Assembly: GCA_029779995.1 (NCBI GenBank)
Contig: JAKOZM010000073.1
Span: 1 to 13,251 of the forward strand
Source: Actinomycetes bacterium
GTDB taxonomy: Bacteria; Actinomycetota; Actinomycetes; S36-B12; UBA10799
Length of the DNA stretch: 13,251 bases
Reading direction: 5' to 3'
Each line of letters opens with the position of its first letter. Within the stretch, counting starts at the first letter, position 1. Under the pieces are notes generated by a model. The model made no database searches, had not been told where the DNA came from, and saw nothing but the letters and a program-made list of their open reading frames with translations. Made by a program: the position numbers and the translations under genes. Positions 2,970-10,034 of the stretch are shown here, piece by piece.

Positions 2970-3086
2970 TCACCGGTAGGCGTCACGCCGATGGGCGATA
3001 TGCAGCACCGTCACGACCCGCCGCGAAGAGTCGATCGTGTAGATGATCCGGTACTGCCCTCGGCTGCCTGCGTAGCGCTGATGAGT
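2970..3086 (-). pseudogene. C-terminal remnant of a RelE/ParE-type toxin
   Basis: The last ~38 codons before the TGA at 2972-2970 read GSRGQYRIIYTID, then SSRRVVTVLHIAHRRDAYR, which is the classic C-terminal third of RelE/ParE mRNA-interferase or gyrase toxins (Arg-Gly-x-Tyr-Arg-x-x-Tyr, then V-T-V-x-x-I-x-H-R-x-x-x-Y-R). The open frame continues upstream, but its residues there derive from repeat B1 and from the antisense side of thrE and do not resemble the family. No antitoxin gene is next to it. The same frame continues after the stop into the truncated MFS gene. It is a dead fragment. Confidence 0.75.
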
Positions 3087-3101
3087 GGAGGTCGTTTGCG
3101 G

Positions 3102-3179
3102 GTTCGTCTCCAGCCCGAGGTTTCCCGGGGTTGTTGGGGTGAAACGCTGCCCAGCGGCCCAACGTCGTCGGAATAGTCG
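3102..3179 (+). repeat. Palindromic repeat family B, copy B1
   Basis: About 78 bp alignable over its length with 5081-5160 (shared phrases TTCGTCT, CGAGGT, GGGGT-GTTGGG, CGCTGC, CCCAACGTC and CGGAA). It contains an outer stem GTTGGG (3133-3138) with CCCAAC (3158-3163) and an inner stem CGCT (3145-3148) with AGCG (3153-3156). It lies between the ThrE stop and the RelE remnant, exactly where RelE similarity ends. Confidence 0.7.
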
Positions 3180-3223
3180 CGGACGGCGGGTGTCTCGAAT
3201 CCTCTCGCGGAGACTGCGCACCA

Positions 3224-4978
3224 TCACGACATTGACGCGCCCGCGCGGGAGCGACCGAATCGCGCCGCGAGCGAGGTGCCGATCAGGACACCCAGGGCGA
3301 TGGACACCATGGTCTGGCCGGCCGTGAGCAAGTAGTCGGCGCCGTAGACACGTTCGTCGCCGAGGTACTTCGTGACGCCGATCAGGCTCAGGGCACCAGG
3401 GACGAGCAGCCAGAAGGCGGGCAGGAAACTCACCAACGGGGTGGGACCGTTGCGATGCCGCGCGACGGCGTAGGCCACCGGCGTCATGAGCACAGCACCG
3501 GTGAACGCCGACAGCACGCCACCGAGGAACAGCCCACCGATGACCTGCCCGGCATACGCCACGTACAGGACGAGCAGAATCCAGGCCGTGGCGCGAGGCC
3601 TGGCGCACAGATGTAGCACGATGCCGACACCGAAGATCGCCACACCGAACCACGGTCCCCAGGGAGCCAGCGGCTGGGTCGCGACATCGGTGACGTTTCC
3701 GGTCGGCACGCCGACCAGTTGCGCCGACGCCACGATCCCCACCGCGAGCAGGAACAGCCGCATCGTCCCGGCAGCGAGCCGACCGGCGCCGGAGATCATC
3801 TGCCCCGTCGCGAGTTCCAGGACGCCGGTGGTGAGCAATGCCCCCGGCAGCAACCCGACCAGTGGAGCGATCAGGGGGGCGAACACGCCGATGTCCCAGG
3901 TGGTGCGGGCGAGCAGGAAGACGGCCATCGACACGACGAACGCCCCCAGTAGGGGCAGCGCGGAGCGATAGGTGGACGTCAGGCTGCCGGCGCGCAGTTG
4001 CAGCGCCCCGAGGACGGCACCGAGCGCCGCAGCTACGGCGATCTCGGCCAGGCTCGCGCCGAGAATGAGCGACAGGCCCAGACTCATCAGGGAGTACCCG
4101 ACAACCCGGGTGGCGAACCCCCAGGGCGGGGGAGTGAGCCGGATCGACTCGAGCCGCTCGACCCCTTCGCTGGGCGGGATTCCCGGTGACTGCGCCTCCT
4201 CGACGACGTCGAACACCTCATCGATCTGATCCAGGCGCAGCCCCCGCACGCCTGCCGAGGCGACGGCCGTGCTGACCTGGTCGGTGCCGGGCAACGAGAC
4301 CATCAGGGCGGTGGCGAACACGACGACCTCCGCATCGGGGACGCCGCTGCGGTGTGCGATCCGTTCGAGCGTTGTGGTGACGTCCGTCACGGGAGCGCCG
4401 GCATCGATCATGGCCTCACCGAGCGCTACGAGGAACTGGCTGGTGTCCGTTGGCGCCAGGATGGGTGGTGCGGGCTCGGTCGTGCGCGGCTTCTGGGCAG
4501 GACGGAATCGGGCCGCTGCGATCAGGAGGGCTACTGCTGCGAGCAGGACCGACAGGGCGATCAGCAGCGCCCCCATGGTGACCGGCGAGTCCTCGCGTGC
4601 AGGTGCCGTCATCGGCGGTGGGGTCGGGCGGGTCGCCGGCTCTGCCTCATCGGTGGGCTCCGAGGTCGGGCTCGCCGTGGCTTCCGGGGTCGGGGCGGGT
4701 GTGCCTTCCGTCGGGGTTGCGTCGGCGCTTGCTTCAACGCTGGGGCTTGGCTCCTGTGGTTCCTCTGATGGAGGTTCCTGTGGCGGCGGTTCCTCGGTCT
4801 CCGGTGCGGAGGTCTCTGGCTCCTGGGTGGGCGTTACCGGGCCTTGCGGCACAGTGTCCGACTGGGTCGCCTCGGGGATGGGGTCGGCGGCAGCGGCCAT
4901 CGGAGCGCAGGCGATGCCGGCGGTGACTGCCAGCATCAGCGCCAGCAGCGTCCGGATGAAGGTGGACAGGATCGTCAT
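3224..4978 (-). CDS. thrE: ThrE-family threonine/serine exporter with a Pro/Thr-rich extracytoplasmic arm
   Basis: A 584-residue inner-membrane protein, likely exporting threonine, serine or related amino acids by proton-motive force. Order of parts: signal-like hydrophobic segment (residues 8-30, ending AAAADP); a low-complexity Pro/Thr/Glu arm (about 32-130); a membrane helix (134-156); the soluble ThrE N-domain with EAMIDAGAPVTDVTTTLERIA (188-208) and FATALMVSLPG (221-231); about five helices (293-455); then a ThrE_2-type half with LLVPGALSLIG near 524-534 and a final helix. The Corynebacterium ThrE I know is roughly 490 residues with both halves, so the extra length is the N-terminal arm. 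ATG at 4978 is preferred because GAGGAGG stands just before it (short 3-base spacing); a GTG at 4999 would include that site in the gene. It is divergent from the DUF1905 gene, and family-B repeats lie on both sides. Confidence 0.85.
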   Translation of the reverse strand: MTILSTFIRTLLALMLAVTAGIACAPMAAAADPIPEATQSDTVPQGPVTPTQEPETSAPETEEPPPQEPPSEEPQEPSPSVEASADATPTEGTPAPTPEATASPTSEPTDEAEPATRPTPPPMTAPAREDSPVTMGALLIALSVLLAAVALLIAAARFRPAQKPRTTEPAPPILAPTDTSQFLVALGEAMIDAGAPVTDVTTTLERIAHRSGVPDAEVVVFATALMVSLPGTDQVSTAVASAGVRGLRLDQIDEVFDVVEEAQSPGIPPSEGVERLESIRLTPPPWGFATRVVGYSLMSLGLSLILGASLAEIAVAAALGAVLGALQLRAGSLTSTYRSALPLLGAFVVSMAVFLLARTTWDIGVFAPLIAPLVGLLPGALLTTGVLELATGQMISGAGRLAAGTMRLFLLAVGIVASAQLVGVPTGNVTDVATQPLAPWGPWFGVAIFGVGIVLHLCARPRATAWILLVLYVAYAGQVIGGLFLGGVLSAFTGAVLMTPVAYAVARHRNGPTPLVSFLPAFWLLVPGALSLIGVTKYLGDERVYGADYLLTAGQTMVSIALGVLIGTSLAARFGRSRAGASMS

Positions 4979-5080
4979 CGACCTCCTCGGGTATGCCACT
5001 GCTGAAGTATGGCTTGGCCGGAGCGCGCGCGTTGATGGCCTTCGCCAATGCGGATGATGTGGATTCGAGCGTTCGGGATC

Positions 5081-5160
5081 CTTCGTCTTCTGCTCGAGGT
5101 ATTCCGGGGTAGTTGGGCAAAATCGCTGCGCGGCGACCCAACGTCTACGGAAAAGTGCGG
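5081..5160 (+). repeat. Palindromic repeat family B, copy B2
   Basis: Second copy of the ~78-bp element, in the same orientation as 3102-3179. Outer stem GTTGGG (5112-5117) with CCCAAC (5137-5142), at the same 25-base offset as in B1; inner stem TCGC (5123-5126) with GCGA (5133-5136). It lies in the divergent gap between thrE and the DUF1905 gene, upstream of the latter's ribosome site. Confidence 0.7.
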
Positions 5161-5184
5161 GGCGGAAGCGGAAGGATGACTCTC

Positions 5185-5658
5185 ATGGTGACCGAGGGAA
5201 CCTCATGGGTCGAGTTCAACGCGCTGGTCGAGGTGTTGCCATGGGGGCGCAACGACTACACCATCATTCGCCTCGATAGGGCTCTCGAGGACGCCGCGAA
5301 GGCTGCGGGTACCCGGCGGATTGAGGGCAGGATCAACGAAGTGCCCGTCAACGTCGGGGTCAACCGGGCCGATGTTCTTCCCGACGCCTTCATGTATGCC
5401 GGAAAGGCTCTGCAACGGCGCCTCGAGGTCCGGCCGGGCGATGTGGTTTTCTGCCGCCTGCGTCCGGCAGACCCCGATGACGTTCCGCTCGCCGACGACG
5501 TCCAGCGCGCATTGGCAGAGGCCGATCGCCTGGCCGCGTTCCTGCGTAAGCGGCCCTCCGAGCGACGGCGTCTGCTGCAACCGATTGAGGACGCCGCACG
5601 GCTGGAGACTCGCCGGCAGCGCATCGCGGCCTTGGTGGGATCGTTACCGCTCGGCTGA
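5185..5658 (+). CDS. DUF1905 / YdeI-like (OmdA, 'bacteriocin-protection') protein
   Basis: A 157-residue soluble protein. The first ~100 residues match the DUF1905 beta-barrel pattern: a charged start, RRIEGRINEVPVNVGVNRADVLPDAFMYAGKALQRRL, then VRPGDVVFCRLRPADPDDVPLADDVQRAL. The last ~45 residues follow the YdeI/OmdA helical pattern: AFLRKRPSERRRLLQPIEDAARLETRRQRIAALV. The biochemical role of the family is not established. ATG 5185 is chosen over ATG 5176 because GGAAGG (5170-5175) is nine bases upstream; a TTG at 5113 would begin inside repeat B2. The following membrane glycosidase gene starts 41 bases after the stop on the same strand, so they may share a transcript. Confidence 0.75.
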   Translation: MVTEGTSWVEFNALVEVLPWGRNDYTIIRLDRALEDAAKAAGTRRIEGRINEVPVNVGVNRADVLPDAFMYAGKALQRRLEVRPGDVVFCRLRPADPDDVPLADDVQRALAEADRLAAFLRKRPSERRRLLQPIEDAARLETRRQRIAALVGSLPLG

Positions 5659-5699: not shown

Positions 5700-8600
5700 A
5701 TGACTATTCTGTGGCGCATGCGGCGGCGTCGGTGGTGGATCCCGACGTTGGTGTATGTCCTCGTGGCGCTGCTCATCGGGTATGGCGCGGCCACCGGCGT
5801 CAACGGTCTGCTGGCGCTGTCGTTATCTCCCAAGGACCTGCCGCCGACCACGACCCTTCCGGTCTCAGCGCCGAAAACCGTCGCACCGCCGACCATCGAC
5901 ACGTTCAGCATGCCGGCCAACTGGCGGGGCGACCCCCTGCTCGTCCTGGCGGCACGGACCTTCCAGGACGCGGTGGAACAAGCGACGGGGACCCGGCCGG
6001 AGGTTGTCGACACCGACGCGGACTTCACGGTGTCGCGGGCGCCCGCCCTGCCGGATGGCGCGTACCGACTGACGACCGAGGGCGTGGCCGGCAGCGGCCG
6101 CAACGGCATCGCAGACGGTCTGTTCGCGGCCGCCGACCTCATCGCGGGCGGCGAGGAACTACCGGATCTCACCAGCAAACCTGTCGTGGCCGACCTCGAG
6201 TACCGGTTCGCCGACTACGGTGCGGTCGGCGTGGAGCCCGACCCGCAGGCGTGGGCCGCGCAGGACGACTACTCCCACAACTCCCGGCAGTTCGCCGACG
6301 TGATCCTCGACGCGCCACCGTGGATCGACCCGGCTGGCATGCGGGCCGCCACTCGCGACTGGAAGCAGTACATCGATCACATCCGGGCCTACGGCTACAA
6401 CGGGGTCATCGTCAGCGGGTTCCTGGAGTACGTGAACTTCGACCTCGTGGGTGACGGCTATCAGATCTATCCGCAGGACAGCCCCTACCGGGCCCGTCAC
6501 GAGGCCATGGTCGAGCAGTTCGGGACGATGTGGGAGTACGCCGCTGACCTCGGCATGCGGGTGGTCTTCAAGACGGACATGCTGGCCAACTCCGGGCCTC
6601 TGAACGACTATGTGGAGCGCGAACTCGGCGGCTTCAATGTCGACGATCCACGGCTGTGGGACATCTATCAAGCGGGCCTCGACGAGTTCCTGCAGAACAT
6701 GCCGTTCATCGACGGCCTGATGATCCGGATCGGGGAGGCGGGTAGCGTCTACAACTCCCCGGGTTGGGACTACTTCTCCACGTTGGCGGTGACCACGGAT
6801 GCGTCCGTGCAGACCATGCTCGAGAAGTTCACACAGACCGCCGCCCAGTACGACAAGACGATCTACTTCCGTACGTGGTCGGTCGGGGTGGGTGACGTCG
6901 GGGACATGCACACGAACCCGCAGACCTACGCACGGGTGCTGGACGGGCTCGACGCCGACAACCTCGTGATCGTCACGAAGTTCACGATGGGCGACTTCTA
7001 CTCCTGGCTGCCGTTGAACCAGACCCTGGAGCAGGGTGCCCAGCCGCGCATCATCGAGTTCCAGAGCCGGCGGGAGTTCGAGGCGTTCTCGTCGTTCCCC
7101 AACTACTTGTCCGCCGACCATCAGCAGGCCCTGCAGCATTTCGAGCAGGCCAACCCGAACATCGACGGTGTCTGGGTGTGGACCCAGGACGGTGGCCCGT
7201 GGCGTGCCGGGCCGATGTCGCTGTATCTCAAGAGCGGTTTCTGGCAGTTGTACGACCTCGACGTCTATGCCACCGGGCGGCTGGCCTGGGATCACGACGC
7301 GGACCTCGCCGCGGTCAATTCGGCATGGATCAGGCGTAACTTCTCCGACGACCCGGCGACGGTGCAGGCGATCGCGGAGGTCTTCGCGCTGTCCCGCGAC
7401 GTTGCCAAGCAGGGCCTTTACATCCCGCCGTACGCCGAGCAGCGGACGCTTGCCCTGGGCCTGGAGCCGCCGCCCATGATGTGGATATTCGAGTGGGATC
7501 TGGTCAGCGGAGACACCGCCGCGTTGTCGGTGATCCACCATGCGTCCCGCGATCGGGTGGCCGAGGCGATCGCCGGCGGCGAGGAGGCGACCGCCCGGGC
7601 GCAGCAGATGTTGGCGACCATCGAGGCCACCGATCCGGCGTCCTGGAAGGACCCGCAGGCCCGCGACAGCATGATCCACGCGCTGGAGTACGAGGTCGAT
7701 CTGTTCCAGACCTTGGGTGCGTTCCGCGCTGCCTTCCTGAGCTACTACGACTGGCTGGCCACCGGCAATGAACAGGCGTGGGTCGACTGGAAGGCCAACA
7801 AGGGGGCGTACGAAACCGCCGTGGCCGAGCACCGGGCCACGTACGCCGGCGACCTCGACACCCCCGCGTACGAGTTCTTCGCCGTCGACGCCGGATTCGG
7901 GCACGCCGAGCGCACCCGCTCCTCGCAGCTCGTGACCGGTGCGGTGATCCTGGTGATCCTCGCGATCCTGCTGCTGGGCAGCCCGCTCGGGCGGCGCTGG
8001 CACGCCAGTCGCTTCGGTGAGGTGGCGCACGGTCTGGTGGTGGGGATGATGGTGCCGTGGCGACTCGGCGAGGGGCGTTCCCGCATGCTCATCTGGGCAC
8101 TGCCGGCGTGCTTGCTGATCCTCAGTCGCGGGGCCTTCTCCGGGTGGCTGTCCTGGAGTTACCTGCTGGCCACCCTCGGGAGTATGGCGCTGTTCACGCT
8201 CACCGCCCGCGTGCTCATCCGCGGCCGCGATCCGTTCGCGCTGTACGCGGGCGTCGGCGGTGCGCTGCTGCTCAAGACCCTTCTGCTGAGTGTGGTCGCC
8301 GTGGTCCGCGGCCCGCTGTTCTACTGGTACCAGTTCTGGGTCGACGAGCAGTTCCGCACCGTGTACGTGACGATCAGTTTCGCGGCGTTCCTGTGGTTGT
8401 TCTGGGTTACCTACGTGGTGATGCGGTCGGCCTACGGGTGTGGTCGGCTGCGGGGCCTGGGCCGGGTGCTGGTGAGCGTGGCGGTACCCATGCTGGCCCT
8501 GGGGTCGCTGATGCAGATCTCGGGCTTGGAGGCCGCGCTGACCACGTTCAACGATCAGATGGCACTGCTGCCGCTGGGGCTGTCGCGCATCCTGGGGATC

Positions 8601-8714
8601 ACGGTCCACCTGGGCATACCGACGTCGATCCCGTTGTATCTCATGGTTGTCGCCGCCGTGCTGGGTGTGATCGGACTGCTGTGTGGGGCGGGTCGGCGCA
8701 CCCGGACGGTCTGA
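5700..8714 (+). CDS. GH67-type alpha-glucuronidase-like domain fused to a multi-spanning membrane domain
   Basis: A 1004-residue protein. RMRRRRWW is followed by a membrane anchor (residues 13-30), which would place the next part outside the cell. Residues 75-155 resemble the N-terminal domain of alpha-glucuronidases (GRNGIADGLFAAADLI). Residues 165-560 fit the GH67 barrel: GYNGVIVSGFLEYVNF, LGMRVVFKTDML, GLMIRIGEAG, NLVIVTKFTMGDF, IIEFQSRREFE, and YATGRLAWDHDADLAAVNSAWIRRNF near 523-548. By alignment with remembered GH67 enzymes the acid is Glu346 and the pair of catalytic carboxylates Asp432 and Glu459, with spacing close to the known one. A helical region runs to about 735. About seven hydrophobic segments follow, centred near 752, 803, 824, 857, 897, 930 and 985. 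GH67 enzymes are normally ~650-700 residues without such a tail. ATG 5718 is an alternative start; neither has a clear ribosome site. Substrate is unknown; glucuronic-acid-bearing polymers or surface glycans are guesses. Confidence 0.7.
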   Translation: MTILWRMRRRRWWIPTLVYVLVALLIGYGAATGVNGLLALSLSPKDLPPTTTLPVSAPKTVAPPTIDTFSMPANWRGDPLLVLAARTFQDAVEQATGTRPEVVDTDADFTVSRAPALPDGAYRLTTEGVAGSGRNGIADGLFAAADLIAGGEELPDLTSKPVVADLEYRFADYGAVGVEPDPQAWAAQDDYSHNSRQFADVILDAPPWIDPAGMRAATRDWKQYIDHIRAYGYNGVIVSGFLEYVNFDLVGDGYQIYPQDSPYRARHEAMVEQFGTMWEYAADLGMRVVFKTDMLANSGPLNDYVERELGGFNVDDPRLWDIYQAGLDEFLQNMPFIDGLMIRIGEAGSVYNSPGWDYFSTLAVTTDASVQTMLEKFTQTAAQYDKTIYFRTWSVGVGDVGDMHTNPQTYARVLDGLDADNLVIVTKFTMGDFYSWLPLNQTLEQGAQPRIIEFQSRREFEAFSSFPNYLSADHQQALQHFEQANPNIDGVWVWTQDGGPWRAGPMSLYLKSGFWQLYDLDVYATGRLAWDHDADLAAVNSAWIRRNFSDDPATVQAIAEVFALSRDVAKQGLYIPPYAEQRTLALGLEPPPMMWIFEWDLVSGDTAALSVIHHASRDRVAEAIAGGEEATARAQQMLATIEATDPASWKDPQARDSMIHALEYEVDLFQTLGAFRAAFLSYYDWLATGNEQAWVDWKANKGAYETAVAEHRATYAGDLDTPAYEFFAVDAGFGHAERTRSSQLVTGAVILVILAILLLGSPLGRRWHASRFGEVAHGLVVGMMVPWRLGEGRSRMLIWALPACLLILSRGAFSGWLSWSYLLATLGSMALFTLTARVLIRGRDPFALYAGVGGALLLKTLLLSVVAVVRGPLFYWYQFWVDEQFRTVYVTISFAAFLWLFWVTYVVMRSAYGCGRLRGLGRVLVSVAVPMLALGSLMQISGLEAALTTFNDQMALLPLGLSRILGITVHLGIPTSIPLYLMVVAAVLGVIGLLCGAGRRTRTV

Positions 8715-9221: not shown

Positions 9222-10034
9222 ATGGCTAATCGGATGCATGTCACATCCCGGGAGTACAAGGTCATGCTGCTCGCGCAGCGTTTCGACGGTGACGAGGCGA
9301 CGATGCGCGAGCAGGTGGACGCCTTCTGGAGTGACCTGAGTTTGCGGCTGGCTGAACTCAACATCCCGGTAGAGGGAGAGTTCAGCGAGGTCAAAGCACG
9401 CAGGTTGATCCGCTTCTTCGACACCCAGGAGCACCGCCTCAACGCTGACCAGTACATCGTGCGCGAACGGGAGGACCTGCAGACGGGGGAGCGTGAGGTC
9501 ACGCTGAAGTTCCGCCACCCGGACCGCTACATCGCCGCCGACCGGCAGATGGACCCTGCCGACGCCGACGACTTCAAGACCAAATTCGAAGAAGACGTCA
9601 AGCCGCCCTTCACAAGCGTCTACAGCTTCTCCACCCCCCAGCCTCTGAAGTCGGGTGCAGTCCTGCAGCAGGTGCGCGACGTCGCCGACCTGTTCCCGGG
9701 TCTGAACAGCGACCTCGATGAGCTGCTGGTGACCCAGCCGCTGGTGCTGGTCTCGGACTTCGTCGGCCACGAGATCGTGCTGGAGGGTGCCAACATCCTG
9801 CTCGGCAAGAAGGACATCGCCAGCGAATGTGCCGTTGTGGTCTGGTACGACCAGGGCGCGGAGGACACCACACCAGTCGTCGCAGAGTTCAGCTTCAAGT
9901 ATGGCAACGAGCTAGAGGATTACCGAGGAACCATCGCCCGCGATGCCTATGCCGTGCTCGGGATGTTGCAGTCGTCGCTGCCCGACTGGGTGGACGCCAA
10001 CCCGATCACCAAGACCGCTTTCGTCTATCGCTGA
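9222..10034 (+). CDS. CYTH / triphosphate-tunnel-like protein
   Basis: A 270-residue soluble protein with no signal peptide or membrane helix. REYKVMLL near residues 10-17 resembles the first acidic/lysine strand of CYTH (triphosphate tunnel metalloenzyme) proteins. RLIRFFDTQEHRL (61-73), then YIVREREDLQTGEREVTLKFR (79-98) match the typical 'Y-x-D-T, L-R-x-R, L-T-L-K' strands. A late VVAEFSFKYG strand (219-228) carries acidic and basic residues as in the family. Members hydrolyse triphosphates or make cAMP or thiamine triphosphate; the substrate here is unknown. Several family residues are only loosely matched, so this could be a diverged tunnel-fold protein without the same activity. ATG 9222 has GAGGAGG a few bases upstream. 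It stands alone: RelE debris before it and repeat A after it. Confidence 0.6.
   Translation: MANRMHVTSREYKVMLLAQRFDGDEATMREQVDAFWSDLSLRLAELNIPVEGEFSEVKARRLIRFFDTQEHRLNADQYIVREREDLQTGEREVTLKFRHPDRYIAADRQMDPADADDFKTKFEEDVKPPFTSVYSFSTPQPLKSGAVLQQVRDVADLFPGLNSDLDELLVTQPLVLVSDFVGHEIVLEGANILLGKKDIASECAVVVWYDQGAEDTTPVVAEFSFKYGNELEDYRGTIARDAYAVLGMLQSSLPDWVDANPITKTAFVYR

Follow-up and report, generated by a model that had tools for sequence, protein, structure and literature searches.

What a catalytic domain resembling that of GH67 alpha-glucuronidases does in the membrane is a question raised by an ORF of the window (the whole 13,251-nucleotide stretch of DNA that was analysed). The first-pass annotation had described this ORF as a GH67-like barrel placed between a membrane anchor and about seven membrane segments. 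The observation is real: the coordinates (ATG at 5700, stop at 8714, + strand, 1004 aa), the residues named, the membrane segments and the stretch of the family's closing pattern were all confirmed (Table 1).

Architecture and fold of the window protein

By hydropathy, the window protein has a single N-terminal segment and, towards its C-terminus, seven to eight more. An AF2 model based on 118 aligned sequences is confident (pLDDT 92.0, pTM 0.90). In it, the N-terminal helix is followed by an alpha/beta domain and the barrel, then by a helical region that leads to seven long helices at the C-terminal end. The long helices span residues 13-38, then 739-760, 795-813, 819-839, 846-870, 883-910, 916-941 and 977-997, and those of the 606-735 region span 606-642, 652-688, 691-715 and 727-737. 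The positive-inside anchor proposed ahead of the barrel is borne out by the basic start, the hydropathy segment and model helix 13-38, and the membrane segments proposed after it agree with the counts obtained by hydropathy and in the model. By the positive-inside rule and the order of the helices, both termini would be inside and the catalytic module outside.

Table 1. Features of the membrane-integral GH67-related gene (positions in the window)
Feature	Position	Strand	Evidence
CDS, membrane-integral GH67-related protein, 1004 aa	5700..8714	+	ORF, Pfam, protein search
N-terminal membrane helix, residues 13-38, after basic start; positive-inside anchor	5736..5813	+	model helix, hydropathy, homologous ORFs
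N-terminal alpha/beta domain, ~60-170, like GH67N / GH20 domain 2	5877..6209	+	model, structure alignments
TIM-barrel catalytic domain, ~171-515	6210..7244	+	Foldseek and VIA vs PDB, hhalign to canonical GH67
Glu346, candidate catalytic acid	6735..6737	+	118/118, 81/81; one residue off GH67 acid in sequence alignments
Arg391, aligns with Arg350 of canonical GH67 L081	6870..6872	+	118/118, hhalign
Lys427, aligns with Lys391 of canonical GH67 L081	6978..6980	+	118/118, hhalign
Asp432, aligns with Asp396 of canonical GH67 L081	6993..6995	+	118/118, phmmer, hhalign, HMM
Glu459, aligns with Glu424 of canonical GH67 L081	7074..7076	+	118/118, phmmer, hhalign, HMM
Start of GH67 C-terminal domain, residues 520-570	7257..7409	+	Pfam PF07477
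Helical region 606-735, runs into membrane domain	7515..7904	+	model helices
C-terminal membrane domain, seven long helices, 739-997	7914..8690	+	hydropathy, model
Predicted outside loop 871-882 (G871, P872, Y875, W876, W880)	8310..8345	+	mean conservation 0.79; side from predicted topology
Predicted outside segment 942-976, perhaps re-entrant	8523..8627	+	mean conservation 0.83; side from predicted topology

The GH67-like barrel is supported by its fold: GH67 structures top both PDB searches run with the window model (Foldseek and VIA), with alignments that begin near residue 60 and cover residues ~60-720. The assignment had been staked on a barrel match by profile or by structure, and such a match was found. 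At the level of profiles the likeness is partial. PF07477 (Glyco_hydro_67C) matches residues 520-570, which include the closing pattern noted at 523-548, with 30.4 bits against a curated cut-off of 27; the match spans profile positions 8-58, just 51 of 223, the rest of the C-domain profile being unmatched. By contrast, neither PF03648 (GH67 N-terminal) nor PF07488 (GH67 catalytic domain) matched the window protein at E <= 1, so that of the three profiles suggested as a check only the C-terminal one was recovered. None of 20 barrel slices matched PF07488 at E <= 1 either. Among nine relatives scanned, PF07477 was above its cut-off in five, and PF07488 was above its own in P0215 (28 vs 23.5) and below it in P0194 (17.1). 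The N-terminal domain aligned weakly in sequence with a hexosaminidase (E 0.017), and Glyco_hydro_20b was above its cut-off in the relative P0240 (26.5 vs 26.1) and below it in P0052, P0064 and L053. The window protein had no match in NCBIfam (E <= 1) or PADLOC (E <= 0.1). DUF4838, weakly matched by three of the 20 barrel slices of alignment A3 (best E 0.0096), is a possible further relative of the barrel.

In an unrooted tree of barrel pieces (36 rows, three of them very long, TM-less and of unsure place), the six canonical GH67s, the only canonical rows included, and the 30 other rows formed two clusters (100/100). Because the catalytic-domain profile gave no match and the tree sets the clade apart, we keep the protein out of GH67. 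We regard it as a widespread membrane-integral relative, in a clade apart from canonical GH67, that likely works like a GH67 enzyme though it is not filed as one.

Putative active-site residues and conserved loops predicted to lie outside

Residues 346, 432 and 459, put forward as the three GH67 catalytic carboxylates, are E, D and E. In alignment A2, E346, R391, K427, D432, E453 and E459 are kept in 118/118 rows, and E346, D432, E453 and E459 are also kept in all 81 ORFs (80 loci and the window); the conservation on which the assignment had been made to depend is complete in both sets. In GH67, Asp365 and Glu393 form the base pair (Cellvibrio numbering), Arg325 and Lys360 bind the substrate carboxylate, and Glu292 (numbered so in the title of 1h41) acts as the catalytic acid. 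Three methods (phmmer, hhalign and an HMM built from six canonical GH67s) place D432 and E459 on the base Asp/Glu pair; their partners in L081 are residues that we take to be its base Asp and base Glu, and the GH67 partners of R391 and K427 are presumably the carboxylate ligands. E346 occupies the position of the GH67 acid, but hhalign and MAFFT each shift it by one residue, the acid motif being one residue shorter in the window protein (RIGE vs canonical KADSE, within KADSEGQPGP). The proposed correspondence hence stands for the D432/E459 pair, whereas E346 is invariant but off register.

The membrane domain has its own conserved parts. Taking column conservation as the share of the commonest residue over 118 rows, single membrane helices average 0.50-0.62, as compared with 0.79 for residues 871-882 and 0.83 for residues 942-976. 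The mean is 0.82 over these two predicted outside segments together, against 0.57 over the remainder of the membrane domain and 0.65 over the catalytic part; when the loop mask was shifted circularly, the observed value was reached by 2 of 259 shifts, the unshifted one counted. Residues 941-975 (0.83) make up the third most conserved 35-residue stretch of the whole protein, below 572-606 and 489-523 (0.84 each) and just above 426-460 (0.82), which holds D432 and E459. Conserved in segment 942-976 are E944, T948, N951, D952, the motif LPxGLSRILG and P974. The charged residues conserved at 95% or more in the membrane domain are R810, R886, E944, D952 and R963, all of which would lie at or near the outside face in the predicted topology. 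The conserved outside loops suggest, at the level of sequence, that the membrane domain is more than an anchor: we read them as holding a membrane-bound part of the substrate or as locking the catalytic module onto the membrane, and the data fit both.

No Pfam family was found in more than two of 25 membrane-domain members at E <= 1; PF09534 reached E 3.3e-4 in L053, yet below its cut-off. The best PDB sequence match of the domain had an E-value of 0.088, and folding it alone, without an alignment, gave a poor model (pLDDT 51.8). Used alone as a query, it retrieved 31 matches, many partial or on short contigs, among which no free-standing membrane-domain family was clearly seen. Three of the matches on longer contigs can be paired with a barrel fragment whose longest contig has the same length (P0125/P0263, P0129/P0202 and P0141/P0177), which suggests split genes.

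Recurrence of the fusion and its genomic context

Of 7995 proteins scored in a protein search, 1027 matched at E <= 1e-3, far beyond chance; the source names of the best 120 of these are mostly 'hypothetical protein' or 'GH67 C-terminal'. That the fusion recurs in other actinobacteria, as had been anticipated, is seen in three family samples and in the 80 loci; the latter were taken from the top of a score ranking of 190 relatives in the genome collection and so lean towards full-length members. Six to eight C-terminal segments are present in 80 of the 81 ORFs (80 loci and the window); the remaining ORF, with two, is L001, whose contig presumably ends there. The N-terminal anchor is a single segment in each of the 79 ORFs that keep their N-terminus, two of the 81 being without it. 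Hosts in the genome collection include Cellulomonas, Micromonospora and Actinoplanes.

Samples drawn evenly by taxonomic family were positive in 41/150 genomes (family of G002), 8/150 (family of G003) and 13/101 (family of G001), and a phylum sample in 4/396, the seed included; these counts are lower bounds because few candidates per genome were scored. With a profile itself built from fusions, 61 of the 62 positive genomes of the family samples reach at least position 1004 of 1018, in one or several pieces (G419, G479, G500, G509 and G744 hold copies in pieces), and the G403 match ends at 859, at which point it has reached the contig's base 1. Further carriers of the membrane domain are P0064 (source-named Chloroflexota), P0136 (source-named Anaerolineae, partial) and P0215. 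In the titles and abstract beginnings returned by searches of open-access PMC we recognised no membrane-integral GH67-like protein, and these searches turned up no functional study of this GH67 relative.

When the barrel alone was used as query, under a length limit that excluded full fusions, 145 proteins were retrieved, and seven of the 120 listed were inspected. Of these, P0241 (452 aa, from a Firmicutes MAG) and P0254 (620 aa, from a Roseiflexaceae MAG) seem truly TM-less and P0182 seems to carry a frame-shift, whereas the membrane domain is present in P0215 and P0194, P0206 and P0219 end before it.

The gene neighbourhood, assessed by clustering the ORFs of the 80 loci and the window, gave no function. 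Where a directly adjacent gene recurs, it mostly does so inside a single genus, and no neighbour conserved across genera was found. A cluster identified as Na/H exchanger by a Pfam scan of its L024 member lies directly downstream on the same strand in 5/80 loci, all from Cellulomonas (L005, L007, L016, L024 and L048). The widest clusters, an ABC-transporter ATPase (loci of 25 of the 81 sequences), a 223-aa cluster (17) and a WYL regulator (12), are scattered up to 9 kb away on both strands, and the ATPases were taken as members of a large common family. Among 97 flanking proteins of 110-650 aa (one per cluster, from 154 positions), no Pfam family occurred in more than two at E <= 1e-6, a scan that speaks to a shared function of different neighbours, not to recurrence of a single neighbour, because clusters were collapsed first.

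In the window itself, a YdeI/OmdA-family ORF (5113-5658, +) on the same strand ends 41 bases before the gene; among the ORFs called in the 80 loci, blastp at E <= 1e-3 found nothing similar to it. Farther away are a ThrE-type threonine/serine exporter (3224-4999, -), an ORF of 270 aa that no Pfam family matches at E <= 0.01 (9222-10034, +), and a PIN-domain ORF (814-1503, -; 20.7 bits, below the cut-off of 23.6) that adjoins a FitA-like ribbon-helix-helix ORF, the two probably forming a toxin-antitoxin pair. Residues 193-226 of the ORF at 2970-3653 (-) match the ParE toxin (23.1 vs a cut-off of 23), and this ORF is perhaps a partial gene or over-long.

A canonical GH67 gene is located elsewhere in three of the four genomes looked at, and also in G229 (L092). 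In the family of G002, both genes occur in 21 of the 41 genomes against 17.2 expected (p 0.19), as for independent presence; in that of G001, canonical GH67 occurs in 1 of 13 against 5.7 expected (p 0.006), as for opposite presence, these p values being uncorrected for kinship.

Proposed function and comparison with known systems

Building on the computed fold, helices, conserved residues and recurrent fusion, our preferred reading, a tentative one held at somewhat under even confidence, is that of an exo-acting alpha-uronidase of a GH67-related clade, integral to the membrane and acting at its outer face on a membrane-tethered substrate. With the N-terminal helix on one side and the seven-helix domain on the other, the catalytic module would sit outside, at the surface of the cytoplasmic membrane. 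The hydrolysis would be inverting, as in GH67: Asp432 together with Glu459 would activate the water, and the leaving group would receive its proton from Glu346. The carboxylate of the sugar would be bound by Arg391 and Lys427, and the membrane domain, through its outside loops, would hold or present what remains of the substrate. What is released, in exo fashion and with inversion, would be a terminal alpha-linked uronic acid, and its source a membrane-tethered glycan, such as a glycolipid bearing uronic acid, an oligosaccharide linked to a lipid or a wall polymer with a lipid anchor. GH67 enzymes are described as inverting and as acting at the non-reducing end (PMC13059095), and Mycobacterium smegmatis and Corynebacterium glutamicum are reported to contain alpha-glucuronosyl diacylglycerol (PMC6868179). 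This lipid and lipid-linked wall polymers would be candidate substrates, should the hosts of the gene make them.

Two rivals stand out, a tethered enzyme for xylan oligosaccharides and a uronidase nearer GH138. The former, which we consider unlikely, would perform ordinary GH67 chemistry on plant glucuronoxylan fragments (xylan or xylo-oligosaccharides), the helices being a mere anchor. Such an enzyme would have the GH67 fold and base pair, and the three host genera named above are plant-polymer degraders; GH1, GH25, GH43 and GH114 occur once each among the 97 flanking proteins, TM-less P0241 is source-named xylan alpha-(1->2)-glucuronosidase, and both genes are found together slightly more often than expected in the family of G002. 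However, no recurrent xylan locus was seen around the 80 loci and the window, the family of G001 shows opposite presence of this gene and canonical GH67, the GH67 C-domain profile is unmatched after position 58, and outside loops conserved like an active site would be superfluous in a mere anchor. A function nearer GH138, an alpha-galacturonidase family, would make the protein an alpha-galacturonidase-like or other uronidase, still membrane-integral. The sequence signal to GH138 is at E 0.19, in the N-terminal domain, and because GH84 rows intervene in VIA, GH138 does not rank second in both structure searches; we find this reading quite unlikely.

The first-pass annotation had suggested surface-glycan trimming, sensing or transport. 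Trimming is our best guess, whereas nothing found beyond the seven helices speaks for the other two. A sensor or transporter, in which the GH67-like domain would bind sugar outside and the helices would pass on a signal or the sugar, fits seven helices with conserved outside loops. It is nevertheless improbable: a binding-only domain would not need invariant catalytic carboxylates, the model has no sizeable cytoplasmic part (the longest inside loop has 34 residues, with a mean conservation of 0.57 apart from P786-W787, and the C-terminal tail has 7), and neither a recurrent Pfam family in the membrane domain nor a cross-genus conserved neighbour was found.

A bolder form of the exo-alpha-uronidase reading, possible but on the unlikely side, is that this is the first known membrane-integral enzyme of its kind. 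It would work within the membrane plane, editing lipid-linked glycans or glycolipids that carry uronic acid, and the outside loops of its seven-helix domain, itself undescribed, would bring the lipid-bound substrate to a GH67-like active site. If the exo-alpha-uronidase reading is right, such proteins would be editors of the bacterium's own envelope glycans, not plant-biomass enzymes, annotation now read as xylan degradation would be corrected, and a handle would be gained on uronic-acid glycolipids or lipid-linked polymers in actinobacteria.

Among known systems, the listed GH138 chains (BP0997; 6hze, 6hzf and 6hzg) have 694-860 residues and no matching membrane part, unlike the window protein. 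P0241 and P0254 share with it R-[IV]-G-E, R-T-W-S-x-G, K-x-x-x-GDF and a Glu at the E459 column, but not the C-terminal seven-helix domain, and may reveal the sugar specificity of the core. A plasmid search gave three distant matches, among them a canonical GH67 from Novosphingobium (L093) and a very distant relative on a Persicobacter plasmid (L094, 5806-7542, +; 578 aa, no Pfam family at E <= 1e-3), which has the R-x-G-E, R-T-W and K-x-x-x-GDF motifs and no Glu at the E459 column, and whose neighbours are porphyranase-like, GH2 and sulfatase genes. With the GH67 alpha-glucuronidases of Pseudomonas (Cellvibrio) cellulosa (1gqi/1h41) and Bacillus (Geobacillus) stearothermophilus (1k9d/1mqr), the window protein has in common the fold over ~60-720, the base Asp/Glu pair, the barrel Arg and Lys and the start of the C-domain. 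It differs from them in missing the N-terminal and catalytic profiles at E <= 1 and most of the C-domain profile, and in having its own anchor and seven membrane helices, the RIGE acid motif and a separate tree cluster.
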